A stretch of DNA of 48,056 bases from an uncultured Eubacteriales bacterium (GTDB lineage Bacteria > Bacillota > Clostridia > Lachnospirales > Lachnospiraceae): NCBI GenBank assembly GCA_900318405.1, contig ONKP01000022.1, positions 1 to 48,056 on the forward strand, in the 5' to 3' direction. Positions 6,602 through 33,683 of this stretch are shown here, in pieces. The notes under the pieces are model-generated. The model did not search any database, was not told the origin of the DNA, and saw only the letters and a list, made by a program, of their open reading frames with translations. Numbering within the stretch: the first letter of the stretch is position 1; each line of letters opens with the position of its first letter. A program made the translations under genes and the position numbers.

Positions 6602-7510
6602 TCACTCTTCGTCGAAATTCAGCGTGATCGACTTTCCGTCCTCACCGGCCTGCGCCGCCGGGAAGATTTTTTTCACATCCTTCATATACCATTCCGGATG
6701 GATCATGGACGGTGAATAATGCGTAAGCCACAGCTGTGCCGGCTTCGCTTCCGCTGCCAGTCTCGCAGCGTCATACATCGTCATATGGCGGTGTTCCTTT
6801 GCTTTTTCCAGCTTTTCCGGATCGCCGTACATGCCCTCGCAGATAAACAGATCCGATCCTGCCGCGTGCTCCGCGATCCGCGCGATTGGGCGTGTATCGG
6901 TACAGTACGTGACCTTCAGGCCGCGGCGCGGCTTTCCGAGCACCATGTCCGGTGTATACGTCACACCATCAGCCTCGATCGTCTCGCCCTTCTGCAGCGG
7001 ATTCCAGTATTTCAGCGGTATCTGCTGTGCCTTCGCCCGTTCCGCGTCAAAGCGGCCGGCCCGCTTGATCTCCAGCGAATATCCCAGGCACGGCATGCTG
7101 TGCTGCAGCCGGAACGGGGTAATGTGATAACCATGCAGCTCAATCGTCTGATCGTCCACTGCTTCCATCAGCTTTATCTCAAACGGAAGCTCCGGTGCGA
7201 TGACACGCAGCCCGGAGACGACTCTCTCCAATCCCTTGGGGCCGATGATCGTCAGCGGTTCTGTCCTCTCCGCATTTGCCATGGCCAGAAGGAATCCCGG
7301 CAGTCCGCTCACATGATCCGCATGATAATGCGTCAGGCAGATCGTGTCCACGGATTTAAACGACCATGCGTGCTCTTTCATGGTGATCTGGGTACCTTCT
7401 CCGCAGTCGATCAGCAGGCTGCTCCCGTTATACCGCGTCAGGAGCGCCGTCAGCCACCTGCCCGGCAGCGGCATCATTCCACCAGTTCCCAGAAGACATA
7501 CATCCAGCAT
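6602..7510 (-). CDS. rnz: Ribonuclease Z (tRNA 3' endonuclease)
   Basis: A 302-residue metallo-beta-lactamase-fold nuclease expected to cut the 3' trailer of tRNA precursors lacking encoded CCA, consistent with both tRNAs here lacking CCA. The zinc motif HYHADH lies at 61-66, and the GTGG, PxGR and late HMTMYDAARLA and LTHYSP motifs fit the RNase Z family. A GAGGTG ribosome site sits about 7 nt before the ATG. A perfect TATAAT on the minus strand at 7613-7618 may be its -10, but no good -35 is visible. The leader holds a hairpin ATCCCGG/CCGGGAT (7579-7612). Confidence 0.9.
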   Translation of the reverse strand: MLDVCLLGTGGMMPLPGRWLTALLTRYNGSSLLIDCGEGTQITMKEHAWSFKSVDTICLTHYHADHVSGLPGFLLAMANAERTEPLTIIGPKGLERVVSGLRVIAPELPFEIKLMEAVDDQTIELHGYHITPFRLQHSMPCLGYSLEIKRAGRFDAERAKAQQIPLKYWNPLQKGETIEADGVTYTPDMVLGKPRRGLKVTYCTDTRPIARIAEHAAGSDLFICEGMYGDPEKLEKAKEHRHMTMYDAARLAAEAKPAQLWLTHYSPSMIHPEWYMKDVKKIFPAAQAGEDGKSITLNFDEE

Positions 7511-7706
7511 GCAAACACCTCAGTCCGCCTCACCGCCTCACTGTCTGCGTGCGGATATGGCTTAGTTTCAAAAATAAATATCCCGGCCACCGTTTTACCG
7601 ACAACCGGGATCATTATATCATACTCCGACAAAAACCGTTTACATTTCACCTGACATATGGATTTGCTGATGAATGAGCTTACCACCGCTGCGTCAAGGA
7701 CGAGCG

Positions 7707-7741
7707 AGAGCGGTCGCTCTGTTGCAGATGAAGTATCTGCA
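7707..7741 (-). other. Tandem small hairpins after trpA
   Basis: TGCAGAT/ATCTGCA (7723-7741) and AGAGCG/CGCTCT (7707-7720) lie just after the trpA stop. They could end the trp transcript, but no T-run follows, so this is only a candidate termination or RNA-stabilising site. Confidence 0.35.
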
Positions 7742-7747
7742 TGTACG

Positions 7748-8533
7748 TCAGACGGACCTCACCGCATCCTTCATGGACTTCACGTAATCATAGATCGGCT
7801 GTGCCGCATTTTTGCCGTACTGCGCTATGAGCTTCTCGATCGCCGACCCGACAATGACGCCGTCGGCGATCTTCGCCATCTCCGCAGCCTGCGCCGGTGT
7901 ATTGATACCGAAGCCGATGGCTGCAGGGATCGTGCTGTTTGCCGCACGGACAGCCTTCATGATGGAGCCGAGATCCGTCGTGATCTTCGAGCGCACGCCG
8001 GTGACACCCATGGACGAAACCACATACAGGAAGCCCTTTGCATCCGCCGCGATCGTCCGAATCCGTTCCTCCGATGTCGGTGCGATCATGGACACGACAT
8101 CCACGTGATGCGCCGCCGCGATCCCGGCGCACTCGTCCTTTTCCTCATACGGCATATCCGGAATGATGATGCCGCTGATGCCGACTTCCTCGCATTTGCT
8201 GAAAAACTTCTCATACCCGTAAAAATAAACGATATTCAGATAGGTCATAAATACCAGCGGCATATCCGTCTTCGTGCGGAGCCTTGCCACCAGCTCAAAC
8301 GCATCGTCCGTTGTCGTTCCGGCTTCCAACGAGCGGAGATCCGCCTCCTGGATCACGATGCCCTCGGCGATCGGATCGGAGAAAGGAATGCCGATCTCGA
8401 TCAGATCCGCGCCCGCGTCACGCATCGCCAGAATATATTCCTCTGTTTTGTCGATGCCCTGGTCCCCGGCTGTGATGAAGGGGATAAAAGCCTTGCCGTT
8501 TTTAAATGCATCCTCAATTCTTTTTGCTTCCAT
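7748..8533 (-). CDS. trpA: Tryptophan synthase alpha chain
   Basis: A 261-residue TIM barrel that cleaves indole-3-glycerol phosphate to indole for TrpB. The start chosen is the ATG at 8533, 8 nt after GAGGAGG; an upstream in-frame start would add 14 unrelated residues overlapping trpB. The catalytic glutamate is E46 in LIEIGIPFSDP. The position of the second catalytic acid (Asp60 in the enterobacterial enzyme) is glutamate (E57, AEGIVIQ). It is the last gene of the trp operon, 13 nt after the trpB stop, whose TGA abuts this ribosome site. Confidence 0.95.
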   Translation of the reverse strand: MEAKRIEDAFKNGKAFIPFITAGDQGIDKTEEYILAMRDAGADLIEIGIPFSDPIAEGIVIQEADLRSLEAGTTTDDAFELVARLRTKTDMPLVFMTYLNIVYFYGYEKFFSKCEEVGISGIIIPDMPYEEKDECAGIAAAHHVDVVSMIAPTSEERIRTIAADAKGFLYVVSSMGVTGVRSKITTDLGSIMKAVRAANSTIPAAIGFGINTPAQAAEMAKIADGVIVGSAIEKLIAQYGKNAAQPIYDYVKSMKDAVRSV

Positions 8534-8546
8534 GCTCTTTTCCTCC

Positions 8547-9743
8547 TCAGCTCTCCAGATCGACGGTGATCCCACGATATTTGGCTACGGATGCCACATC
8601 CTTGTCGCCACGTCCCGACAGGCAGATGATCATGATCTGATCCTTACTCATCTGCGGCGCAAGCTTCATGGCATAGGCAACAGCGTGCGAACTCTCCAGT
8701 GCCGGAATGATGCCCTCTGTCCTGGACAGATATTCAAAAGCATTGACGGCCTCATCATCCGTCACAGGCACATATTCCGCGCGGCCGATGGAATGCAGGT
8801 ACGCATGCTCCGGACCGATGCCCGGGTAATCCAGACCGGCGGAAATGGAGTACACCTTGTCGATCTGGCCGTAGTCGTTCTGGCAGAAGAGGGACTTCAT
8901 CCCATGGAAGACGCCCATCTTGCCGGTGGAGATCGTCGCCGCCGTTTCGCCACTGTCAATGCCGCGGCCGGCCGCCTCGCAGCCGATCAGACGTACATTT
9001 TTGTCGGGGATAAAATTGTAGAACATGCCCATGGCGTTGGAGCCGCCACCCACGCAGGCGAGAACAGCATCCGGCAGCCGGCCTTCTTTTTCCAGGATCT
9101 GTGCGCGCGCCTCCTTCGAGATGACGGACTGGAAATCGCGGACGATCGTCGGGAACGGATGCGGGCCCATCGTCGAACCGATGACGTAATGCGTATCCTC
9201 CGTGCGGGAAGCCCACTCACGCATGGCCTCATTGACGGCATCCTTGAGTACCTGCGACCCGGAGGTCACATGGTGAACCTTTGCGCCGAGAAGCTCCATG
9301 CGGTATACGTTGAGCTTCTGCCGCTGGCAGTCCTTTTCGCCCATGAAAATCTCGCACTCCATATCCATCAGAGCGGCGACCGTAGCCGTGGCGACACCGT
9401 GCTGTCCGGCGCCGGTCTCGGCAATGACACGGGTCTTTCCCATTTTCTTCGCGAGGAGCACCTGGCCCAGGCAGTTATTGATCTTGTGCGCACCGGTGTG
9501 GTTCAGATCCTCACGCTTCAAGTAGATCTTCGCGCCGCCGAGATCCTTCGTCATCTTCTCAGCGTAGTACAGGCGGGAAGGACGCCCTGCATAATTATTC
9601 AGCAGGTCATTCAGTTCCTTATTAAAGGCCGGATCATTTTTGTAATGATTGTACGCCTCTTCCAGGTGAATCAGCTCGTTCATCAGGGTCTCGGGAACAT
9701 ACTGTCCGCCGAAATCTCCAAATCTTCCCTCAGGGTTTGTCAT
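8547..9743 (-). CDS. trpB: Tryptophan synthase beta chain
   Basis: A 398-residue PLP enzyme that condenses indole with serine to give tryptophan. The PLP lysine is K87 in [10 protein letters not shown], at the same number as in the Escherichia coli protein; the phosphate-binding GGGSNAMG loop and the [13 protein letters not shown] start are intact. The ATG overlaps the trpF stop by ATGA, so it is translationally coupled; its GAGGAGG ribosome site lies within trpF. Confidence 0.97.
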
Positions 9744-10357
9744 CTCTTTCTTACCTCCTCTGCGGCTTTTCTCATTTTTTCCGGATCCTTGATCCGGTCT
9801 GTCTCCAGTCCGCTGCTCATATCCACGGCAAACGGATGAAATCTGTCGACGGCTTCACCGACGTTTTCCGGTGTCAGCCCGCCGGCCAGGAAATACTCTC
9901 TGCCGATATCGCGGATCAGCTTCCAGTCAAAGGTCTGTCCCGTTCCGGCGCCGTTATCCAGAAGGATATAGTCGGCTGCGCTGTGCTCCGCCTTCACCAG
10001 ATCGGCGGGCGTGCGCACCCTGCAGGCCTGGATCACCGGCGCGATCGTATTCTGGAACGCCATGACGTCACGGAGTTTCCGGATGTAGTATTCGCTCTCA
10101 TTTCCATGCAGCTGGACGATATCAATGATGCCCTTCTTCAGATAATCTGCGATCTTCTCGTACGGTTCATCAACGAACACGCCGACCGCGCGGATGGACG
10201 GATCCAGCATGGCCTTCAGCTCCGCTGCCTTCTCCGGCGGAATGTACCGCCAGAATCTGTCTGTGCAGATGAATCCGATGTAGTCCGGGCGGATCCGGTT
10301 CACCGCCTCAATGTCTTCCCTGCGGCGCATGCCGCAGAATTTCATCCGTGTTCCCAT
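9740..10357 (-). CDS. trpF: Phosphoribosylanthranilate isomerase
   Basis: A 205-residue TIM-barrel enzyme for the third step of tryptophan synthesis. KFCGM at residues 6-10 holds the catalytic cysteine, and [17 protein letters not shown] carries the catalytic aspartate. It is a stand-alone gene rather than fused to trpC. It starts 12 nt after the trpC stop and ends in a 4-nt overlap with trpB. An in-frame ATG four codons later is the only alternative start. Confidence 0.95.
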
Positions 10358-25057: not shown

Positions 25058-26098
25058 ATGGGTGTACTGCTTATCATCATTCTGATCATTGTCATCTGGA
25101 TCCTGGCCGCCAATTTCCGGGTGGTGCCGCAGGCAAACGCGTACGTCATCGAGCACCTCGGCAAATATAAGACGACATGGGGCGCCGGCCTGCATATCAA
25201 GGCACCTTTCATCGAGCGGATTGCAGCCAAAGTGTCCCTGAAGGAGCAGGTTCTTGACTTCCCGCCGCAGCCCGTCATCACCAAGGATAACGTGACGATG
25301 CAGATCGATTCCGTTGTCTTCTGCTATGTATTCGATCCCCGCCTGTTTACCTACGGCGTGGAAAATCCGGTGGCAGGCCTTCAGAATCTCTCGGCGACAA
25401 CGCTCCGCAATATCATCGGAGAGATGGAGCTCGACCAGACACTGACCAGTCGCGACCAGATCAATACACGCCTGCAGGCGGTGCTCGACCAGGCGACCGA
25501 TCCCTGGGGCATCAAGGTCACCCGTGTGGAGATCAAAAATATTCAGCCTCCGAAGGAAATCGAGGAGGTCATGACCAAGCAGATGCGCGCCGAGCGTGAA
25601 CGCCGCCAGACTGTACTCGAGGCGCAGGCGCATCAGGAAGCTGTTGTCAGCCGTGCCGAGGGTGATAAAAAAGCGAAGATCCTCGCCGCCGAGGCTGAGA
25701 GGGACGCACAGATTTCCCTGGCGGAAGGCCGTGCGAAATCCATCTCTCTCGTTTACCAGGCTGAGGCAGATGGTCTGCGCGCACTGAAAGATGCGAACAT
25801 CGATGAATCCGTGCTGCGCCTGAAAGGCATTGAGGCACTGAAGACCGTATCGGACGGCCGCGCCACAAAGATCTATATGCCGAGCGACCTGACCAATGTC
25901 ATCTCCAGTCTCGGACTTGCCTCAGAGGCACTGGGCATCGGTGATGCGATACCAATTGACAAAACGGCCAAACCGGTACCGCCGAAACCCGTCGATCCCT
26001 GCCTGAGCAGCGAATCCAGCGAGGCAACGCTGAACGCCGCGGCAACAGGTGCTGCCATTGAATCCGACGTGGAGCATCAGGCTGCAGAAAAGAACTGA
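25058..26098 (+). CDS. SPFH/Band 7 (stomatin-prohibitin) membrane protein
   Basis: A 346-residue protein with one N-terminal TM helix (residues 2-20) followed by an SPFH domain (25-190: VVPQANAYVIEHLGKYKTTW, FPPQPVITKDNVTM) and a charged coiled coil (180-250, Ala/Glu/Arg-rich). It resembles QmcA/stomatin proteins, thought to scaffold membrane microdomains and often to control proteases. No NfeD partner is adjacent. The ATG at 25058 lies 8 nt after AGAGGAGG. A weak promoter candidate is TTAACA at 24912-24917 with TATGCT 16 bases on. It ends at a strong terminator. Confidence 0.9.
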   Translation: MGVLLIIILIIVIWILAANFRVVPQANAYVIEHLGKYKTTWGAGLHIKAPFIERIAAKVSLKEQVLDFPPQPVITKDNVTMQIDSVVFCYVFDPRLFTYGVENPVAGLQNLSATTLRNIIGEMELDQTLTSRDQINTRLQAVLDQATDPWGIKVTRVEIKNIQPPKEIEEVMTKQMRAERERRQTVLEAQAHQEAVVSRAEGDKKAKILAAEAERDAQISLAEGRAKSISLVYQAEADGLRALKDANIDESVLRLKGIEALKTVSDGRATKIYMPSDLTNVISSLGLASEALGIGDAIPIDKTAKPVPPKPVDPCLSSESSEATLNAAATGAAIESDVEHQAAEKN

Positions 26099-26103
26099 AT
26101 GGG

Positions 26104-26148
26104 AAAGGGCTGTGAAGAAATGTTTTGCATTTCTTCACAGCCCTTTTT
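26104..26148 (+). terminator. Strong intrinsic terminator after the SPFH gene
   Basis: A 19-bp perfect stem (AAAGGGCTGTGAAGAAATG at 26104-26122 with its complement at 26128-26146), a five-base loop, and a T-run. Confidence 0.95.
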
Positions 26149-26188
26149 ATGTTTTTACATCTTTGGTTCTATGATCCTCATATCCAAA

Positions 26189-26242
26189 AATACAGATGCT
26201 TCCAACCTGCAACCATCTGCTGCGGATGGAGTCATCTGTATT
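26189..26242. repeat. Palindromic intergenic element, family 3, complete copy
   Basis: AATACAGATG (26189-26198) and CATCTGTATT (26233-26242) are perfect inverted arms. The left half recurs, reverse-complemented, at 47940-47972 with about three mismatches in 33 bases. Confidence 0.7.
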
Positions 26243-26268
26243 CCGGACTATTATGAATCTGGTTGAGT

Positions 26269-28134
26269 TTACGCCTTGCCTTCCTGTGCCAGCTGGTCGT
26301 TCAGGATATCCAGAATATCATACACATCGAGGCCATGCGTCATGCACGCCTCCGCCAGCGTCTCCATTGTGGACACACCGCAGCCGATGCAGTGCAGTCC
26401 CGCACTCATCATGACCGGAACGAGAGAAGGATATGTCTGAACGATATCGCCCACGATCATATCCGGCTTGATCAGGGTATCCGATGCACCCATAAATGCC
26501 TCCATATCTTCCTGCACGGATTTGATCTGTGCAATGCCGAAATACTTGACCAGAACATCCAGTACATTTTTTGACAGATATGCCGGGAATGTCGGACCAA
26601 TGTGCATATGCTTCACATCCAGGTAGAGAAGCGACAGCAGAACGATCGTATCCTTCTGATCATGCCATGCCAGGTCATAGACCACCGGCAGCTGGTTCAG
26701 ATTATCCAGACCGAGCTTGTCCTTGAGCGCCAGCAGGAACTGAATGATCGAGTAGACGTCGCTCAGCTGTCCTGCGTCAATGATCCGCGGCATACCGGCG
26801 ACCGTCGTCTCATCATCCGTCTTCAGGAAGCGGTATTTCAGCGAACCGGCTGTAAGGATCAGTGCGTCATCCGGCATGGCCTTGACAATGTCGGTGTAAT
26901 AGCTGCGCGTCTTCGCGCGTCCGTCACTGCCTGCCAGTACAAAAATTTTGGAAACGGATCCCGTTCTGACAGCGTCAGCCATCTGGTCGAGCAGCTTCAT
27001 CAGCTGATCATGACCGTAGCCGCCGGCAATCTTTCCGCCGTCCACGGCATGCGGAAGCTCGCATTTTTTCGCCATTTCGATCACAGGAGAAAAATCTCTC
27101 CGGCCGTCCGCATCAGCCGAAATATGCACGGTTCCCGGATACCCGGCTGTTCCCGTCGTGAAAAATCTTTCGAGAAGATCGCTCTTCGGCGGTACGATAT
27201 CTGCGCCCGTCATGATCACCGGTCCGTTAAAGTGTTCAAAGTCCGTCTTCTGCTGCCACCAGGCCCCGCCGTAATTGCCGGCCAGATTGCCATAGGCCTT
27301 CAGTTTCGGATAAAACGCCGCCGGCATCATATCGCTGTATGTATACACGTCCACGCCCTGCTCCGCTGCCTGTGCAAGCACCTGATCCAGCACATGCAGA
27401 TCATCTCCGGCAACGAGGATAGCCGGACGGTTTCCGACGCCTGCGGAAATTTTTCCTGCCGCCGGATGACCGAATGCCTCTGTCTGCGCGCGGTCGAGCA
27501 GATCCATGCCGCGCACGCCGTAGCGTCCCGTCTCCATCACCAGTGCAAGCAGGCTGCCGCCCGTCATCGTCTCATCGAGCGTCTGAGAAAGCGCCCGCTG
27601 GATAAAGGAATCGACATCCGGATCATTTTTACCAAGTTCGTTGGCACGGTTATTCATCACTGCCAGTCCCTTGACGCCGTAGGTGATCAGCTCGCGGAAG
27701 CTGCGGATATCGTCATCGCGTGTAGCCATCACGCCCACATCCTTCGCGTGCGCCTTCTCCGCAAAGCTTTCCCGGCTTCCGGTCCAGGTGGCTGCATCCG
27801 GCAGTCCGTCCTGTTTGCTCAGCCGACCGATCAGACCATCCCTCGCAGCGAGCGTCTTCTCCACGCTGTCAGCCAGCATTTCCGTATCAAAGTTGGCATC
27901 TGTCACCGTCATGCAGAGGTTTTCTGTGACCAGACGGTTCACCTCAGCCGGTATCTCCGTTTTCTGGCGGCGCAGACGCGTAGTCACCGCCGAGATGCCC
28001 TTCGTAACATAGATCAGCAGGTCCTGCATGGCGGCAGTATCCGCTTTTTTCCCGCACATGCCGGTGCGGGTGCATCCGGTGCCCGCCATGGTTTCCTGGC
28101 ACTGATAGCAGAACATCGCATTCTGATTTTCCAT
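26269..28134 (-). CDS. Hcp-like protein lacking hybrid-cluster ligands, with DUF1858 domain
   Basis: A 621-residue relative of hydroxylamine reductase/hybrid cluster protein (Hcp). The N-terminal cysteine set for an iron-sulfur cluster is kept (C9, C12, C21, C27), and the fold is clearly Hcp by the GNYGGAWWQQK, SYYTDI, KYRF and GPTFPAYL segments. The known hybrid-cluster ligands of Hcp (His244, Glu268, Cys312, Cys406, Cys434, Cys459, Glu494 in the Desulfovibrio protein) correspond here to D244, D268, D312, S403, S431, L457 and D492, so the hybrid cluster cannot form as in Hcp. Residues about 550-618 are a DUF1858 domain with HCIGC. Databases would name it hcp, but reductase or NO-reductase activity should not be assumed. 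GGAGG lies 12 nt before the ATG. Confidence 0.88.
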   Translation of the reverse strand: MENQNAMFCYQCQETMAGTGCTRTGMCGKKADTAAMQDLLIYVTKGISAVTTRLRRQKTEIPAEVNRLVTENLCMTVTDANFDTEMLADSVEKTLAARDGLIGRLSKQDGLPDAATWTGSRESFAEKAHAKDVGVMATRDDDIRSFRELITYGVKGLAVMNNRANELGKNDPDVDSFIQRALSQTLDETMTGGSLLALVMETGRYGVRGMDLLDRAQTEAFGHPAAGKISAGVGNRPAILVAGDDLHVLDQVLAQAAEQGVDVYTYSDMMPAAFYPKLKAYGNLAGNYGGAWWQQKTDFEHFNGPVIMTGADIVPPKSDLLERFFTTGTAGYPGTVHISADADGRRDFSPVIEMAKKCELPHAVDGGKIAGGYGHDQLMKLLDQMADAVRTGSVSKIFVLAGSDGRAKTRSYYTDIVKAMPDDALILTAGSLKYRFLKTDDETTVAGMPRIIDAGQLSDVYSIIQFLLALKDKLGLDNLNQLPVVYDLAWHDQKDTIVLLSLLYLDVKHMHIGPTFPAYLSKNVLDVLVKYFGIAQIKSVQEDMEAFMGASDTLIKPDMIVGDIVQTYPSLVPVMMSAGLHCIGCGVSTMETLAEACMTHGLDVYDILDILNDQLAQEGKA

Positions 28135-28194
28135 ATATGTATAAGTCCTCCGTTCTGTTTATGTTGTGGTTGTATTTCATTCCAATGTATAGCA

Positions 28195-28235
28195 GAAGAA
28201 GAAATCTCCTCCCCTTACGGGAGAAAACTTCTTCC
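28195..28235 (-). terminator. Probable terminator of csoR-copA-copZ
   Basis: On the minus strand GAAGAAG...CTCCC-gtaag-GGGAG...CTTCTTC forms a long interrupted hairpin followed by a T-rich stretch without a pure T-run. It lies about 40 bp after the copZ stop. Confidence 0.5.
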
Positions 28236-28272
28236 AGTATATCAGCATTAAGCAGATTTATACAGTGAATTT

Positions 28273-28488
28273 TCAGGCGGTAACACCTGCATAATCATAG
28301 CCTGCGTCTGTGACAGCCTTCTTCAGAACATCCTCCGACACATCCGCCGAAAGACTGAGTTTCGCCGTACCTGTATCATGAGATACCTCAGCACTCTCAA
28401 CACCATCCAGTGCCTCCAGCGCCTTCTTCACTCTCATCTCGCAGTGCTCGCACATCATGCCTTCAACCTTAACTGTTTCTGTCTTCAT
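28273..28488 (-). CDS. copZ: Copper chaperone CopZ-like (HMA domain)
   Basis: A 71-residue single heavy-metal-associated domain. The metal site GMMCEHC (residues 10-16) gives the CxxC pair that binds Cu(I), and the rest fits the beta-alpha-beta-beta-alpha-beta fold. It should carry copper to the CopA ATPase encoded just upstream. AGGAGGG precedes the ATG, with a 29-bp gap to copA. It is likely controlled by CsoR from the promoter at 31681-31709. Confidence 0.88.
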   Translation of the reverse strand: MKTETVKVEGMMCEHCEMRVKKALEALDGVESAEVSHDTGTAKLSLSADVSEDVLKKAVTDAGYDYAGVTA

Positions 28489-28517
28489 AGCTGCATTCCC
28501 TCCTGTTATATCCTTTG

Positions 28518-31073
28518 TTATATTCTGTTTTGTTGTATCCTGTTTTGTTGTTTTGTTGCATCCTGTACTGCTGTACTCTGTTTTGTTGTATCCTGTTCGG
28601 TTTTTCCTGCATCTGCGCCGCTGTTCTTACCATATGCGCCGAGGAGCTGACCGCTGCCGACGGCATTTTTCATTTTTCTGTCATGGCTCGTATTAAAAAT
28701 ATTGAACAGATTCAGCCGGAGTGCATTGCATACGACGAATACGCTCGAGCAGCTCATCGCCGCGGCACCCCACATCGGGTTCATGGACAGTCCGAGGAAA
28801 GCCCACGCACCGGCTGCCAGCGGGATCAGCAGAACATTGTAGATCAGTGCCCAGAAGAGGTTCTCCTTGATGTCCTTATAGGTCTGTCTGGACAGACGGA
28901 TCGCTGCAGCCGCATCGCCGAGCCTTGATTTCATCAGCACGACATCCGCCGCATCGATTGCCACATCTGTTCCGGCACCGATGGCGATACCGATGTCCGC
29001 GCGGGTAAGCGCAGGCGCATCGTTGATACCATCACCGACCATGGCTGTCTTTCCGTGCTTCTGGAGCTCCCGGATCACGGCTTCCTTGCCGTCCGGCAGT
29101 ACGCCGGCCACCACTTCGTCTACACCCGCCTCACGGCCAACTGCCGCAGCTGTACGCTCGTTATCACCTGTCAGCATCACAACGTGGATGCCCATGTTTC
29201 TCATCTCGCGAATAGCTTCCGGTGAATCCTTGCGGATCGTATCCGCCACAGCGATGATGCCGAGGAGTCTGCCGCCACAGGCGAAAAACAGAGGTGTCTT
29301 CCCGAGTCCTGCCAGTTCTTCCGCTTTCTTCTTCATGTCGGCGCTGACCGCAGCTCTTCCCTGTATGAAGGCCGCGTTGCCGCCGGAGAGGACGACATTC
29401 TGATCATCAGTGACCTGAAGAGAAGCATGGCTGCCGTTCTGACCGTCACCCGTTGTTCCTGCAAAAAATCCATCGGCCGTTCCCGCAGGAATCTCTGCCT
29501 GCAGGCCGTTGCCCGGAAGTGCCTTAAAGCCGCTCACCTCAAAGGCACGCTGTCCGTCTTCACCGTCGGCGTACGCCGTCACGGCCTTTGCCAGCGGATG
29601 CTCACTGCGTCGCTCCAGGGATGCCGCTGCCGAAACCAGATCTTCTTCCGTCACACCTTCCGCCGGGATCACATCCGTCACAACCGGTTTGCCATTGGTG
29701 ATCGTACCGGTCTTGTCGAGCGCTACGATCTGCACATTTCCCGTCTCCTGCAGAGCTTCAGCCGTCTTGAACAGGATGCCGTTCTTCGCGCCGACGCCGT
29801 TGCCGACCATGATGGCAACCGGAGTCGCAAGTCCGAGCGCGCACGGGCAGGAGACAACGAGTACGCTGATACCTCTCTGCAGCGCCAGTCCGATATTGAC
29901 CGATCCCGTCGTCACAGCTGTCACGATCAGCCAGATCACCGTCACAACAGCGGCGATCGTGATAACAGCCGGTACAAATACAGCCGAGATTCTGTCCGCC
30001 AGCCTTGCCACCGGTGCCTTTGTCGCCGATGCGTCGCTGACCATGTTGATGATCTGTGCCAGCGTCGTGTCCTCACCGACACGCTCCGCGCGGCACTTCA
30101 GGAAACCGCTCTGGTTCAGTGTCGCCGAGCTGACCTTGCTACCCTCCTGCTTGTCAACCGGAAGGCTCTCGCCGGTCAGTGCCGACTCATCAACGGCACT
30201 TGTTCCCTCGATGACTACGCCGTCCACCGGAATGTTCTCACCCGGGCGTACAACGAAAATATCACCCTTCACAACGTCATCGATATTGACCGTGACTTCC
30301 TGTCCGTTGCGGATTACGTTGGCCGTCTTCGGTGCCAGCTTCATCAGGCTCTTGAGCGCATCCGTCGTCCTGCCCTTGGAATAGGACTCCAGTGTTTTTC
30401 CGATGGTAATCAGCGTGAGGATCATCGCCGCCGATTCGAAGTACAGTTCATTCATCACGGCCATCGATGCCTCTGTGCCCTGGTGAAGCTGTACATAGCT
30501 CATGTAGAAAAGCATCACTGTGCTATATCCGAAAGCCGTACCGGAACCGATCGCGATCAGCGAATCCATATTCGGCGCACCGTGCACCAGTCCCTTGAAA
30601 CCGCTGACAAAAAACTTTTTATTGATCAGCATGACAACGATGGTGAGCAGAAGTTCCATCAGGGAGACCGATACCGGATTGCCTTTCATGAACGCCGGCT
30701 CCGGCCATCCCCACATATGCACGCCCATGCTGAAGTACATCAGCGCCAGAAGAAAAATAATCGACAGCACCAGTCTTCTGATCATCAGCGGCGTCGTGTG
30801 ATCCTCCAGCGCCTCTTCCTCAGCCGCGAGTTTGGCGCCTGCACTGACACCGCTTCCCTTCGCCTCACCGGCGTCTCTCAGCTTTGCGCCATATCCTGCC
30901 TGATCAACCGCCTGACATATGGCATCCGGCGATGCGGTGCCTTCTACACGCATGGAATTCGTGAGCAGACTCACAGAAACATTCGTGACACCGGGCACGC
31001 CGGAAACCGCTTTTTCTATGTGCGCCTGGCACGAAGCACAGCTCATTCCTGTTACGTCATACGTTTCAGCCAT
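28518..31073 (-). CDS. copA: Copper-exporting P1B-type ATPase CopA
   Basis: An 851-residue membrane ATPase that exports Cu(I). One N-terminal HMA domain (GMSCASC, residues 9-15), the intramembrane CPC site ([11 protein letters not shown]), the phosphorylation site [11 protein letters not shown], the SEHPLAKAV nucleotide motif and [10 protein letters not shown] are all intact. It ends in an unusual hydrophilic tail of about 45 residues (from [10 protein letters not shown]) rich in Gln, Asn and Thr, encoded by short repeats. The ribosome site AAAGGGG is 11 nt from the ATG, a long spacing. It lies between csoR and copZ. Confidence 0.95.
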
Positions 31074-31109
31074 AACTTTGATTGCCCCTTTCTATGCAAA
31101 TTAATCTGG

Positions 31110-31195
31110 TTGTATAAGTCGTCGCAAAGCCATAGTCGGTCTTGCGCACCCTTCGGGTGTGCAGTCCGCCTCTGGCATGCGACGGACATATACAC
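31110..31195. repeat. Palindromic intergenic element, family 2, long copy
   Basis: Inverted arms TTGTATAAGTCGTCGCA and TGCGACGGACATATACA enclose an inner hairpin GCACCCTTCGGGTGTGC. The right arm matches the short copy at 24832-24875. It lies in the csoR-copA gap, 37 bp before copA, so it would be transcribed in that operon. Confidence 0.75.
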
Positions 31196-31615
31196 TTACC
31201 TCATCAGCTTCGGAAGCAGCACATGGATCAGTTCTTCCATCTTGTCCGTCTTGCCATCCTTCACCTCATCCATCACACAGGTTTCCAGATGATTTGTGAG
31301 GATCGCGCGGTTGAAGCTGTTCAGTGCGGAGTTGATGGCCGATACCTGAACAATAATATCCAGACAGTAGGCATTCTCCTCCAGCATCTTGCGGACGCCT
31401 CTCACCTGACCCTCAATCCTGGCCAGACGATTGACGAGATCCCTGAATTCCTTTTCCGAACGCTCCTTTGATTTATGCCGGCAGCAGTCCGGAACTGCAG
31501 GTTCCGCACTGACCTGTTCTTCCACCTGTTTCTTATCCTGCTCTTTATTCATTCCCTCATCCATTTCAATATTTTCCGATGCACTGCCGCAGCAGCATTT
31601 CTTTTTTTCTGCCAT
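31196..31615 (-). CDS. csoR: Copper-sensing repressor CsoR family
   Basis: A 139-residue repressor that releases DNA on binding Cu(I). The ligand set is C84, H109 and C113 (YCLDII... and NHLETC), with the 25- and 4-residue spacing of known CsoR proteins. Residues 1-50 are an extra cysteine-rich, charged extension (KKKCCCGS, DCCRHK) not found in the basic family and possibly another metal site. I chose the ATG at 31615 with AAGGTGG; an in-frame ATG at 31636 lacks a ribosome site. It is the first gene of csoR-copA-copZ and probably autoregulated through the two palindromes upstream. Confidence 0.9.
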   Translation of the reverse strand: MAEKKKCCCGSASENIEMDEGMNKEQDKKQVEEQVSAEPAVPDCCRHKSKERSEKEFRDLVNRLARIEGQVRGVRKMLEENAYCLDIIVQVSAINSALNSFNRAILTNHLETCVMDEVKDGKTDKMEELIHVLLPKLMR

Positions 31616-31645
31616 ACCAGCCACCTTTTCCTTCATGATGTTTTT

Positions 31646-31662
31646 ATACCCATATGGGGTAT
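31646..31662. promoter_or_regulatory. CsoR-type operator 2
   Basis: ATACCCATATGGGGTAT, a near-perfect GC-centred palindrome of the CsoR type, sits in the leader 31 bp before the csoR ATG and 40 bp from operator 1. Confidence 0.75.
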
Positions 31663-31680
31663 CTTTCCTTTGCAGTTGCC

Positions 31681-31709
31681 AGTATATACCCCTTCCCGGT
31701 ATAACGCAA
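31681..31709 (-). promoter_or_regulatory. csoR promoter with overlapping CsoR-type operator 1
   Basis: On the minus strand TTGCGT (31704-31709) and TATACT (31681-31686) are 17 bases apart. The spacer is occupied by the palindrome ATACCCCTTCCCGGTAT (31686-31702), so a bound repressor would block RNA polymerase. Confidence 0.75.
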
Positions 31710-31776
31710 TACTTTTTTGCAACCCGAAAACTTCATTCATCAAAATTCCGAATTCGCTTTTCACTCAAAAGATTCA

Positions 31777-32028
31777 GCCAGAGACAAACAACAGCTGCCG
31801 CAGATGACCGGCGAACATTGTACGTTTTTCGTCGTGAGTGAGCATGCCAGCTGCGGCCCGGGTGACAACCGTTCAAGCAGAAATGCTTCCAGAATATATT
31901 GCGTTTGCAAATTTCTGGATAAGCATTTCTGCGCGTTTTGTCAGAGGGCCGCAAATCAGCGCATGCGAGCGAACAGAAAAACGTACAGTGAGCCGATCAC
32001 TGCGGCAGCTGTTACCATTGACTCTGCC
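31777..32028. repeat. 252-bp imperfect inverted repeat (fold-back element)
   Basis: Two arms of about 117 bp face each other around an 18-base loop (31895-31912). Matching blocks, left arm against the complement of the right, include AACAGCTGCCGCAG, GTACGTTTTTC, GCGGCCC, GCAGAAATGCTT and CCAGAA. The tips read GCCAGAG and CTCTGCC. No open frame of note fits inside. This is the only content of the 340-bp gap between the csoR promoter and the UbiB gene. Confidence 0.85.
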
Positions 32029-32048
32029 AATTATGCAATTATAAATCT

Positions 32049-33683
32049 TCACTTGCGTTTCCGATGCTCCTTCATTTCTCTCGGTCTGGTGATGATATGC
32101 CGCACCACAAGAAACGCGACGATCGTCCCCGCCAGTCCGAAGCCGATCACGCCGAGCAAAGGCATGCCGAAGACCTGCGGCTGAAGATCCGATGTACAGA
32201 GAATCGCCGATGCGATCAGCAGCGCCATGACCCAGATGCCGAGCACGAGGTTCTGCACAAGTTTCCGCAGGAGCCATGCGAGCCGGGGCGAGGTCTTCAG
32301 CTCCATACTCATATGGCCTTCTCCGGCCATGTAATCACGAAGCGCCCTCTCCACCAGCGAGGGAATCTCCACAGATTTTTCCAGGGAGTGAATAAGCTTT
32401 CCGGACCCCGTGCGAAGTTCTTTCTTCCAGTCAAAGTTCTCCAGCCGGTCGGCGATGACACGGCGCGTGGCGATCTCCGCCATATTGATATCCGGACTGA
32501 TCTCCGCGAGATCCCCCTCCATGTGAATCAGACCGCGGGCCAGCATCGCGAGGCCATGCGGCAGGCGGATCCCGTTCCGTTTCATCGCCTCAATGACTTC
32601 CTGAAAAAACTGGGCGACATCCACGTTCGTGATATCCGTATCCACATAGTCCTGCAGGATCGTGCTCAGATCATGATACAGCGCGTCTCTGTCGGGCTGT
32701 TTCTGAAAATCCCCCAGCTTCAGGACGGCATTTTCCACTGCCGTCGTGTCATGATTGGCAATACCCCGGATAGCATCACCGAGCAGTTTTCTGTCCGATT
32801 CAGAGAGGCGGCCCATCATGCCCATGTCGATCCAGATTATTTTTCCATTCGACACCTTGACATTGCCGGGATGCGGATCTGCGTGGAAAAATCCGTCGTC
32901 CATCACCTGCTTGATGAAATTGTCAACCAGCTTCTCACCGATCTCATGCAGATCATAGCCCCGCGCCTCCAGCGTCTCCCTGTCATTGACGGGGCAGCCG
33001 CCGACATAGTCCATGACCAGCACTTCTCTGGTCGTGTATTCCCGGTAGAGCTTCGGCACGCCGACAAACCGGACATTCGCGTTGTTTCTGGCGAACTCCT
33101 CCATATTGTCAGCTTCCTGCAGAAAGTTCATCTCTTCCTGCGCGACCTTCCACATCTCCGTCAGGACCTCGTCAAAATCGACGACATTTTTCAGCCCGCC
33201 GACTGACGGGAGAAGCTTCACTGCACGGCGCAGCAGGCGGATGTCGCGCGACATCGTGTTATAGATGCCCTTTCGCTGCACCTTAATGATCACATCCTGC
33301 CCGTTTTTCAGCCGGGCCCGGTGCACCTGTGCGATCGAAGCAGAGCCGAGCGGTTTTTCTTCAATAGAAGTAAATACATTCTCCCAGCTCTCGCCGTAGG
33401 ACTGATCGATCACGTCGATCACATCGGAAAAAGGCATCGGCGCCACGTCGGAATTCAGCTTCATCAGCTCCTGACAGTATTCAGCGGGCAGAATATCCGA
33501 ATGCATGGACATGATCTGGCCGATTTTGATATAGGTCGGGCCCAGTTCCTCCAGCACGACGCGCAGTTTTTCCGGCGTGATTCCCTGAAAGACATGGTTA
33601 TCCTTCAGAATTTTCAGGATCTCCCTGAAACGGGACTGTGATGCCGCCTGTTTTTCACCTGTTTTTGTCGATTCTTCCGCCAT
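32049..33683 (-). CDS. UbiB/AarF/ABC1-family atypical kinase
   Basis: A 544-residue protein-kinase-like ATPase. Family motifs are present: KIGQ in LGPTYIKIGQIMSMHSDILP (about 50-69), the Ala-rich loop LGSASIAQVHRA, HADPHPGN, and the metal-binding IWIDMGMMG. Two C-terminal TM helices (about 475-530) anchor it in the membrane. In quinone-making bacteria UbiB helps ubiquinone synthesis; this anaerobe shows no such pathway here, so a role in isoprenoid-lipid handling is only a guess. GGGAG precedes the ATG. It is followed, upstream on the same strand, by a phasin-like gene. Confidence 0.9.
   Translation of the reverse strand: MAEESTKTGEKQAASQSRFREILKILKDNHVFQGITPEKLRVVLEELGPTYIKIGQIMSMHSDILPAEYCQELMKLNSDVAPMPFSDVIDVIDQSYGESWENVFTSIEEKPLGSASIAQVHRARLKNGQDVIIKVQRKGIYNTMSRDIRLLRRAVKLLPSVGGLKNVVDFDEVLTEMWKVAQEEMNFLQEADNMEEFARNNANVRFVGVPKLYREYTTREVLVMDYVGGCPVNDRETLEARGYDLHEIGEKLVDNFIKQVMDDGFFHADPHPGNVKVSNGKIIWIDMGMMGRLSESDRKLLGDAIRGIANHDTTAVENAVLKLGDFQKQPDRDALYHDLSTILQDYVDTDITNVDVAQFFQEVIEAMKRNGIRLPHGLAMLARGLIHMEGDLAEISPDINMAEIATRRVIADRLENFDWKKELRTGSGKLIHSLEKSVEIPSLVERALRDYMAGEGHMSMELKTSPRLAWLLRKLVQNLVLGIWVMALLIASAILCTSDLQPQVFGMPLLGVIGFGLAGTIVAFLVVRHIITRPREMKEHRKRK

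Follow-up and report, generated by a model that had tools for sequence, protein, structure and literature searches.

The hybrid cluster of Hcp is held by seven ligands (His, Glu, four Cys and a second Glu), which the accessible text of PMC10502027 describes as conserved across all classes of the protein; the physiological role of Hcp has been described as long unclear (PMC10210160, in the part available). Among the carbon monoxide dehydrogenases (CODHs), variants in the ligands of the C-cluster are reported to occur (PMC6344411). Here we analyse a window of 48,056 nucleotides, contig ONKP01000022.1 of an uncultured Lachnospiraceae bacterium, in which the minus-strand open reading frame (ORF) 26269..28134 encodes an Hcp relative without any of the seven ligands; we call the gene hcp* and the protein Hcp*. 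Judged from its ligand positions, Hcp* very probably has neither the [4Fe-2S-3O] hybrid cluster nor the hydroxylamine/NO reductase activity of Hcp. The reading that we favour, and to which we give slightly less than even weight, is that Hcp* is a maintained Hcp pseudoenzyme which in one lineage has been recruited to the copper response, where it would work through an N-terminal cluster and the dithiol of a C-terminal DUF1858 domain.

The ORF is genuine; it has an ATG start and codes for 621 amino acids. Its body is that of a class I Hcp, matching Prismane (PF03063) at 394.8 bits, and it is followed by a DUF1858 domain at about residues 553-615 (26290..26478, minus strand), which is recognized by both PF08984 (65.8 bits, cut-off 32.2) and TIGR03980 (78 bits, cut-off 44.95) and contains the motif HCIGC. 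The protein also scores 623.7 bits against the hydroxylamine-reductase equivalog NF003658, well above the cut-off of 367, so automatic annotation would name it hydroxylamine reductase. An AlphaFold2 model (pLDDT 86.3, pTM 0.82) finds its best PDB match by Foldseek in 1gn9, with a root-mean-square deviation (rmsd) of 1.8 over 546 columns; since all other rows of the alignment behind the model are ligand-complete Hcps, the modelled fold is partly assumed.

Using the residue numbers of D. vulgaris Hcp (PDB 1e2u) for the ligands, the replacements in Hcp* are H244D, E268D, C312D, C406S, C434S, C459L and E494D, with 0/7 positions identical. In its own numbering these residues are D244, D268, D312, S403, S431, L457 and D492, and the stretch of residues 244-492 that spans them lies at 26659..27405 (minus strand). 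We considered misalignment as the cause and rejected it, as there are no gaps near the seven ligand blocks, either pairwise with 1gn9 or in the family alignments. Retained are K496, the HCIGC of DUF1858 at residues 581-585, and the N-terminal cysteines C9, C12, C21 and C27 (residues 9-27, 28054..28110, minus strand), so that the four-cysteine [4Fe-4S] motif is present. An earlier, sequence-only reading of this DNA had described just this pattern of seven ligands replaced and of N-terminal cysteines and HCIGC kept, and had warned that the name hydroxylamine reductase would be wrong; the alignments bear it out on each of these points. It was mistaken in seeing no other cysteine in the region, because C358 lies inside the ligand stretch, though at a non-ligand column, one that is nearly invariant Cys across 31 ligand-complete Hcps and the window protein. 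Even E494D, among the mildest of the seven changes, may affect function, since variants of the corresponding Glu492 of E. coli Hcp, Glu to Asp included, are cited as evidence that this Glu is functionally important (PMC10502027, accessible text). As Hcp* shares descent with Hcp but has none of its seven ligands, it is better named an Hcp-derived protein than a hydroxylamine reductase.

Ligand-less relatives occur in the window's genus (16 genomes) and in a second genus of the same family (five genomes). That this family is Lachnospiraceae is indicated by two of its members, G331 and G127, whose Hcps match those of [Clostridium] aminophilum and Lachnoanaerobaculum gingivalis at every retained alignment column. 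In the window's genus the Hcp-DUF1858 fusion is present in 15/16 genomes, G003 having only a fragment at a contig end; 8/15 orthologues are ligand-less, the window protein included, and 7/15 are ligand-complete (G002, G004, G006, G007, G008, G011 and G014). Read along the seven ligand columns, the window protein has D D D S S L D, and the others have Y E G S S I D (G005), Q E G S S C G (G012), Q E E S S C D (G009), S E Q G S T D (G015), T E G D S L G (G013), S E N S D V S (G010) and S E G D S A G (G001). All five proteins of the second genus read D D E S/T S/T S/C D. The closest relative of Hcp* is G005, at 70% identity, and the ligand-complete orthologues of the genus are 61-63% identical to it. 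All four N-terminal cysteines are found in 13/13 ligand-less proteins, as is the HC..C of DUF1858. The ligand-less protein of G001 (locus L126, 3052-5007) has in addition about 30 inserted residues, rich in Ala, Glu and Asp, behind residue 439 in window numbering.

Searches at the level of family, order and class covered 397, 392 and 391 genomes, of which 81, 126 and 108 had a match at E 1e-150; ligands were read in the best 30 or fewer loci per search and in a few extra regions, and further ligand-less Hcps may occur among the lower-ranked matches. The ligands are complete in 80/80 named loci, one of which (L034) is G002. A set of 90 aligned rows holds 84 ligand-complete proteins, the other six being the five of the second genus and the window protein; an overlapping set of 58 rows holds 56, the other two being G010 and G001 of the window's genus. 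Six loci had no row in the smaller set: L029 and L230 are complete at the covered sites, L216, L232 (G120) and L229 (G420) belong to the second genus, and L128 was again without a row. Some ligand-less genomes also carry a ligand-complete Hcp (G005 and G012 in the window's genus, G420 and G437 in the second). In the window's own genome (G000, contig C7, locus L129, about 8346-9880), a stand-alone ligand-complete Hcp reads as truncated, with frame changes and a loss of about 30 codons that include the E494/K496 stretch; five relatives carry a 543-aa copy of this stand-alone Hcp, and the truncation is either a real deletion or an assembly error. At L130 (G057, 7498-9547), Hcp and DUF1858 stand in two adjacent separate frames, possibly the state before fusion.

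The coding sequences of the ligand-less copies are constrained. By the NG86 method, dN/dS between close ligand-less pairs is 0.068 (G009/G012) and 0.060, 0.032, 0.033 and 0.012 (four pairs of the second genus), and between five ligand-complete pairs it is 0.021-0.034, G002/G014 and G004/G014 among the latter having dS above 1.5. Assembly error or a pseudogene was rejected as an explanation, as the frames are open at full length in 13 genomes and the close pairs are under purifying selection. Between the window protein and G005, the slowest part is DUF1858 (dN/dS 0.056), followed by the N-terminus (0.066), the cluster domains (0.135) and the middle (0.225), at dS of 0.8-1.8.

A test by alignment column points the same way. 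From 89 ligand-complete rows we took the 209 columns with conservation of 98% or more and scored them in the eight ligand-less proteins of the window's genus. At the seven ligand columns the canonical residue is kept on average in 1.3/8 rows, as against 6.1/8 at the other columns; when seven columns were drawn at random 200,000 times, a value this low came up once. Conserved columns within three residues of a ligand are kept in 5.3/8 rows, a figure that rises to 7.8/8 over the first 40 residues; of 12 conserved DUF1858 columns, 10 are kept in 8/8, among them H581, C582 and C585. By this measure the catalytic pocket is the part that is released most, and both the cluster motif of the N-terminus and the dithiol of DUF1858 are held, which argues against decay and for a changed role. 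In the sequence-only reading, orthologues with the full ligand set were to mark the window copy as just a decayed gene; such orthologues do exist (7/15), but strong purifying selection in the close pairs speaks against the decay.

In trees of Hcp built without the ligand columns, the ligand-less proteins nest among the ligand-complete proteins of the window's genus. The eight from this genus form one clade when the second genus is left out (support 88/87 and 89/92); when it is added, the 13 ligand-less proteins group together with support 71/55. Neither a clade of all 15 proteins of the genus nor a clade of its eight ligand-less proteins is rejected (p 0.305 each). The second genus branches inside the radiation of the window's genus, its stem being about 1.0 long, and a placement outside is not rejected (p 0.305); nor are trees that put G009 and G012 with the group of G002, or species-tree groupings (p 0.124, 0.098, 0.072). 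In an rpoB tree, which left out G006 and G015 (partial) as well as G010 and G014 (no rpoB match at threshold), the six ligand-less genomes included need two changes, forced by starred branches. The ligands may thus have been lost once or more than once, and transfer between the genera, parallel loss and long-branch attraction all remain in play.

The copper setting of hcp*, which is new relative to the sequence-only reading, comes from its neighbours. On the minus strand the order is csoR-copA-copZ-hcp*, with a repressor of the CsoR/RcnR metal-sensitive family (31196..31636; PF02583, 97.9 bits), a CopA-type P1B ATPase (28518..31073; TIGR01511, 573.6 bits, cut-off 397) and a CopZ-like HMA protein that has its own gene (28273..28488). 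Ten bases upstream of the csoR start is a CsoR-type operator, TACCCATATGGGGTA (31647..31661), a G-tract pseudopalindrome of the TAC-N9-GTA form that is described for CsoR operators (PMC3902906, accessible text); the pattern TACCC-N5-GGGTA has a single occurrence in the window, and 0/100 shuffles contain it. A second, weaker TAC-N9-GTA candidate, TACCGGGAAGGGGTA on the minus strand, was read by eye at 31687..31701. Between the 3' end of hcp* and a stomatin-like gene lies a plus-strand hairpin of 20 pairs with a T tail (26103..26147), probably a terminator. Ahead of its PF02583 domain, the CsoR-like repressor is extended at the N-terminus by about 60 residues, which include CCC and CC clusters. 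A degenerate array of 6.1 copies of a 15-base repeat (28514-28597) is found where copA ends, immediately ahead of copZ; the CopZ domain is within the CopA frame in five relatives with copA-hcp*, and the array may have split a CopA-CopZ fusion in the window.

The arrangement recurs. copA is directly upstream of hcp* in 6/8 ligand-less cases of the genus, with gaps of roughly 10-150 bases, and csoR precedes copA in the window, G005, G015, G013 and G010, each with a strict CsoR-type box upstream of csoR; in G001 the contig begins just before copA. Around the hcp of the ligand-complete genomes, a CopA or CsoR match is absent from 11-20 kb in 6/7, and those six have their CopA on a different contig, except G008, where it is about 190 kb from hcp; in the seventh, G014, hcp is on a 3.8-kb contig and CopA on another, which leaves room for linkage there. 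The 80 named ligand-complete loci, 48 of them with full 8-kb flanks, include one with csoR-copA-copZ, 3.5 kb away, and one weak ATPase match. The former is L083 of Catenisphaera adipataccumulans, where csoR-copA-copZ lies upstream of a stand-alone ligand-complete Hcp, the only such neighbourhood among these loci. As far as seen, then, the adjacent copper operon is confined to ligand-less copies, but it is not required for the ligand-less state. The stomatin-like neighbour adjoins hcp in ligand-complete G002, G007, G011 and G014 and in the ligand-less window, G005, G010 and G015, which places the gene at the same chromosomal position in all eight genomes. A CopA tree groups the copies from all seven ligand-complete genomes in a single starred clade.

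From order, strand and spacing, we hold with moderate confidence that hcp* is co-transcribed with csoR-copA-copZ, and copper-induced expression of hcp* is rather likely in the lineage where the genes are linked. As to mechanism, we speculate that electrons would enter Hcp* at the N-terminal cluster and would serve the C-terminal CxxC of DUF1858 or maintain its reduced state; the target of the CxxC might in turn be Cu(I), or else thiols or Fe-S sites damaged by copper, and the former catalytic barrel would be a scaffold. Loss of a thiolate-rich, presumably copper-sensitive cluster would fit the copper setting. Prokaryotic selenoproteins are reported to include a DUF1858 protein with CxxU, in which selenocysteine replaces the second cysteine (PMC9312934, accessible text), and this fits a redox-active dithiol. 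A redox or thiol relay of this kind, active in copper stress, is a possible role suggested by the conserved motifs, if a doubtful one.

Several observations weigh against this picture. The route from the N-terminal cluster to the DUF1858 dithiol is a postulated step, in which our confidence is low. Distant ligand-less pairs have a dN/dS of 0.146 (window/G005) and 0.211 (G013/G001), and distant ligand-complete pairs one of 0.09-0.109, with dS close to saturation in every case; on these estimates constraint is relaxed in the more distant ligand-less pairs. Ligand-less G012 has no adjacent copA in 16 kb; in ligand-less G009 the 428 bases covered upstream are without copA, its CopA being on another contig; and no copA is found in 11 kb around the G120 copy of the second genus or in flanks of about 1.5 kb of three others. 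A promoter scan of 25900-32200 gave one sigma-70-like site, where chance predicts 4.0, and neither csoR nor hcp* is preceded by one; the gap of 138 bases between copZ and hcp* in the window leaves room for a promoter of its own. Operon position alone is not proof of a copper role.

The alternative that survives best, though we think it rather improbable, is a maintained scaffold or binding protein unrelated to copper, beside which copA arrived by accident. The stomatin-like neighbour, common to ligand-complete and ligand-less loci, suits a pre-existing gene of this sort, as do G012 and the copA-free flanks of the second genus. An accident sits less well with an order, strand and short spacing repeated in six genomes and seen beside none of the six ligand-complete copies with enough flank; a single origin of the hcp*-linked copA copies is neither shown nor rejected by the CopA tree (p 0.376).

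The sequence-only reading had held that the changes favour hard oxygen ligands and could mean a different metal site, or else a purely structural or sensory role. On the first of these options, the ligand set would have been rebuilt as a site of four carboxylates and two hydroxyls that might take, say, mono- or dinuclear Fe, Mn, Mg or Ca. In the second genus the set is conserved and chemically similar in 5/5 proteins: carboxylates at 244, 268, 312 and 494 are invariant across two subclades of 67% identity, and in the window protein these four are likewise carboxylates, with hydroxyls at the same pair of positions as in the second genus. A carboxylate (E or D) stands at 268 in 13/13 ligand-less proteins, the only general replacement in the window's genus. 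Within that genus, however, the set is not conserved; ligand-less pairs agree at 1-5/7 ligand columns, below their overall identity in 25/28 pairs, and the nearest relative, G005, is without two of the four carboxylates. A conserved Asp/Ser metal site within the genus is thus poorly supported, the replaced residues having drifted. Agreement of the window protein with the second genus (3-5/7) is not clearly above their overall identity of 46-48%. A new metal site may exist in the second genus and the window protein, but as an account of Hcp* it has a small chance of being right. There is also a broader version, in our view unlikely: in two genera the pocket of an Hcp-derived family would have turned from the Fe-S-O hybrid cluster to oxygen ligands, giving a natural Hcp that lacks this cluster, and in one of the two the protein would have acquired copper induction and a new function, as a redox/thiol relay or through a new metal site.

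There is a very small chance that Hcp* partners an ordinary Hcp of the same cell, as its regulator or as a subunit. Four ligand-less genomes do carry a ligand-complete Hcp as well, as noted above, and that of G000 reads as truncated; but the ligand-less protein is the sole Hcp at E 1e-60 in G009 (99% complete), G001 (94%), G120 (95%), G435 (94%) and G436 (91%), and class I Hcps are described as monomers in the accessible text of PMC10502027. Scarcely probable, too, is another Fe-S or Fe-O cluster built in the old pocket from E/D268, C459 and carboxylates: position 268 would suit it, C459 is present in 4/13 proteins (G009, G012, G420 and G437), and CODH-V of the species abbreviated Ch, of the same fold, is described as holding an Fe-S-O cluster with a changed ligand set (PMC10502027), but in the window protein cysteine is missing from all four of the ligand positions that it normally fills. 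Drift of a gene whose enzyme is no longer needed is largely refuted, since the long end branches of 6/8 ligand-less proteins of the genus (0.27-0.98, with ligand-complete G007 at 0.26), a G009/G012 dN/dS that exceeds that of ligand-complete pairs two- to threefold and the values of distant pairs stand against full-length frames in 13 genomes of two genera, dN/dS of 0.012-0.068 in close pairs and the near-complete retention of the N-terminal columns (7.8/8) and of the DUF1858 His and both Cys (8/8).

We found no description of an Hcp without hybrid-cluster ligands in the accessible parts of the open-licence literature on Hcp ligands, classes, phylogeny, copper, DUF1858 and pseudoenzymes, in keeping with the earlier suggestion of a possibly undescribed branch. 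A lineage under selection in which the catalytic ligands are gone and the N-terminal motif and the dithiol remain is a natural experiment that separates the two halves of Hcp and makes the role of DUF1858 testable, with the ligand-complete orthologues, several of them at the same chromosomal place, as matched controls. It also adds to the copper operon a gene without a known copper function, and it is a case where a curated equivalog model labels as hydroxylamine reductase a protein in which the active-site ligands are absent.

With class I Hcp (the prismane protein; D. vulgaris 1e2u, D. desulfuricans 1gn9), Hcp* shares the fold, 43-49% identity, the C-X2-C-X8-C-X5-C motif and K496; it differs in the seven replaced ligands, the added DUF1858 and the location in a copper operon. 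The ligand-complete Hcp-DUF1858 fusions, such as those of [Clostridium] aminophilum (L035), Lachnoanaerobaculum (L037) and the metagenome-assembled genome CAIFEZ01 (L034), have the same architecture but, unlike Hcp*, keep H E C C C C E, and 0/6 of the same-genus ones with enough flank are beside copA. CODH variants with altered C-cluster ligands (CODH-V, and clades with Asp/Glu for the second Cys) belong to the same superfamily and have a homologous pocket (PMC6344411, PMC10502027); going by the accessible parts of these accounts, usually one ligand position varies and CODH-V keeps a cluster, whereas Hcp* changes all seven and has no cysteine ligand left. From Ni-CODH, Hcp* differs in that the C-cluster pocket cysteines, at positions shared with Hcp ligands, are absent, and CODH chains match it weakly (best Foldseek E 2.5e-17, rmsd about 13). 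With the csoR-copA-copZ copper-efflux operons, finally, the locus shares the repressor, the exporter, the chaperone and the TAC-N9-GTA G-tract operator, and an hcp-derived gene is here added at the 3' end.

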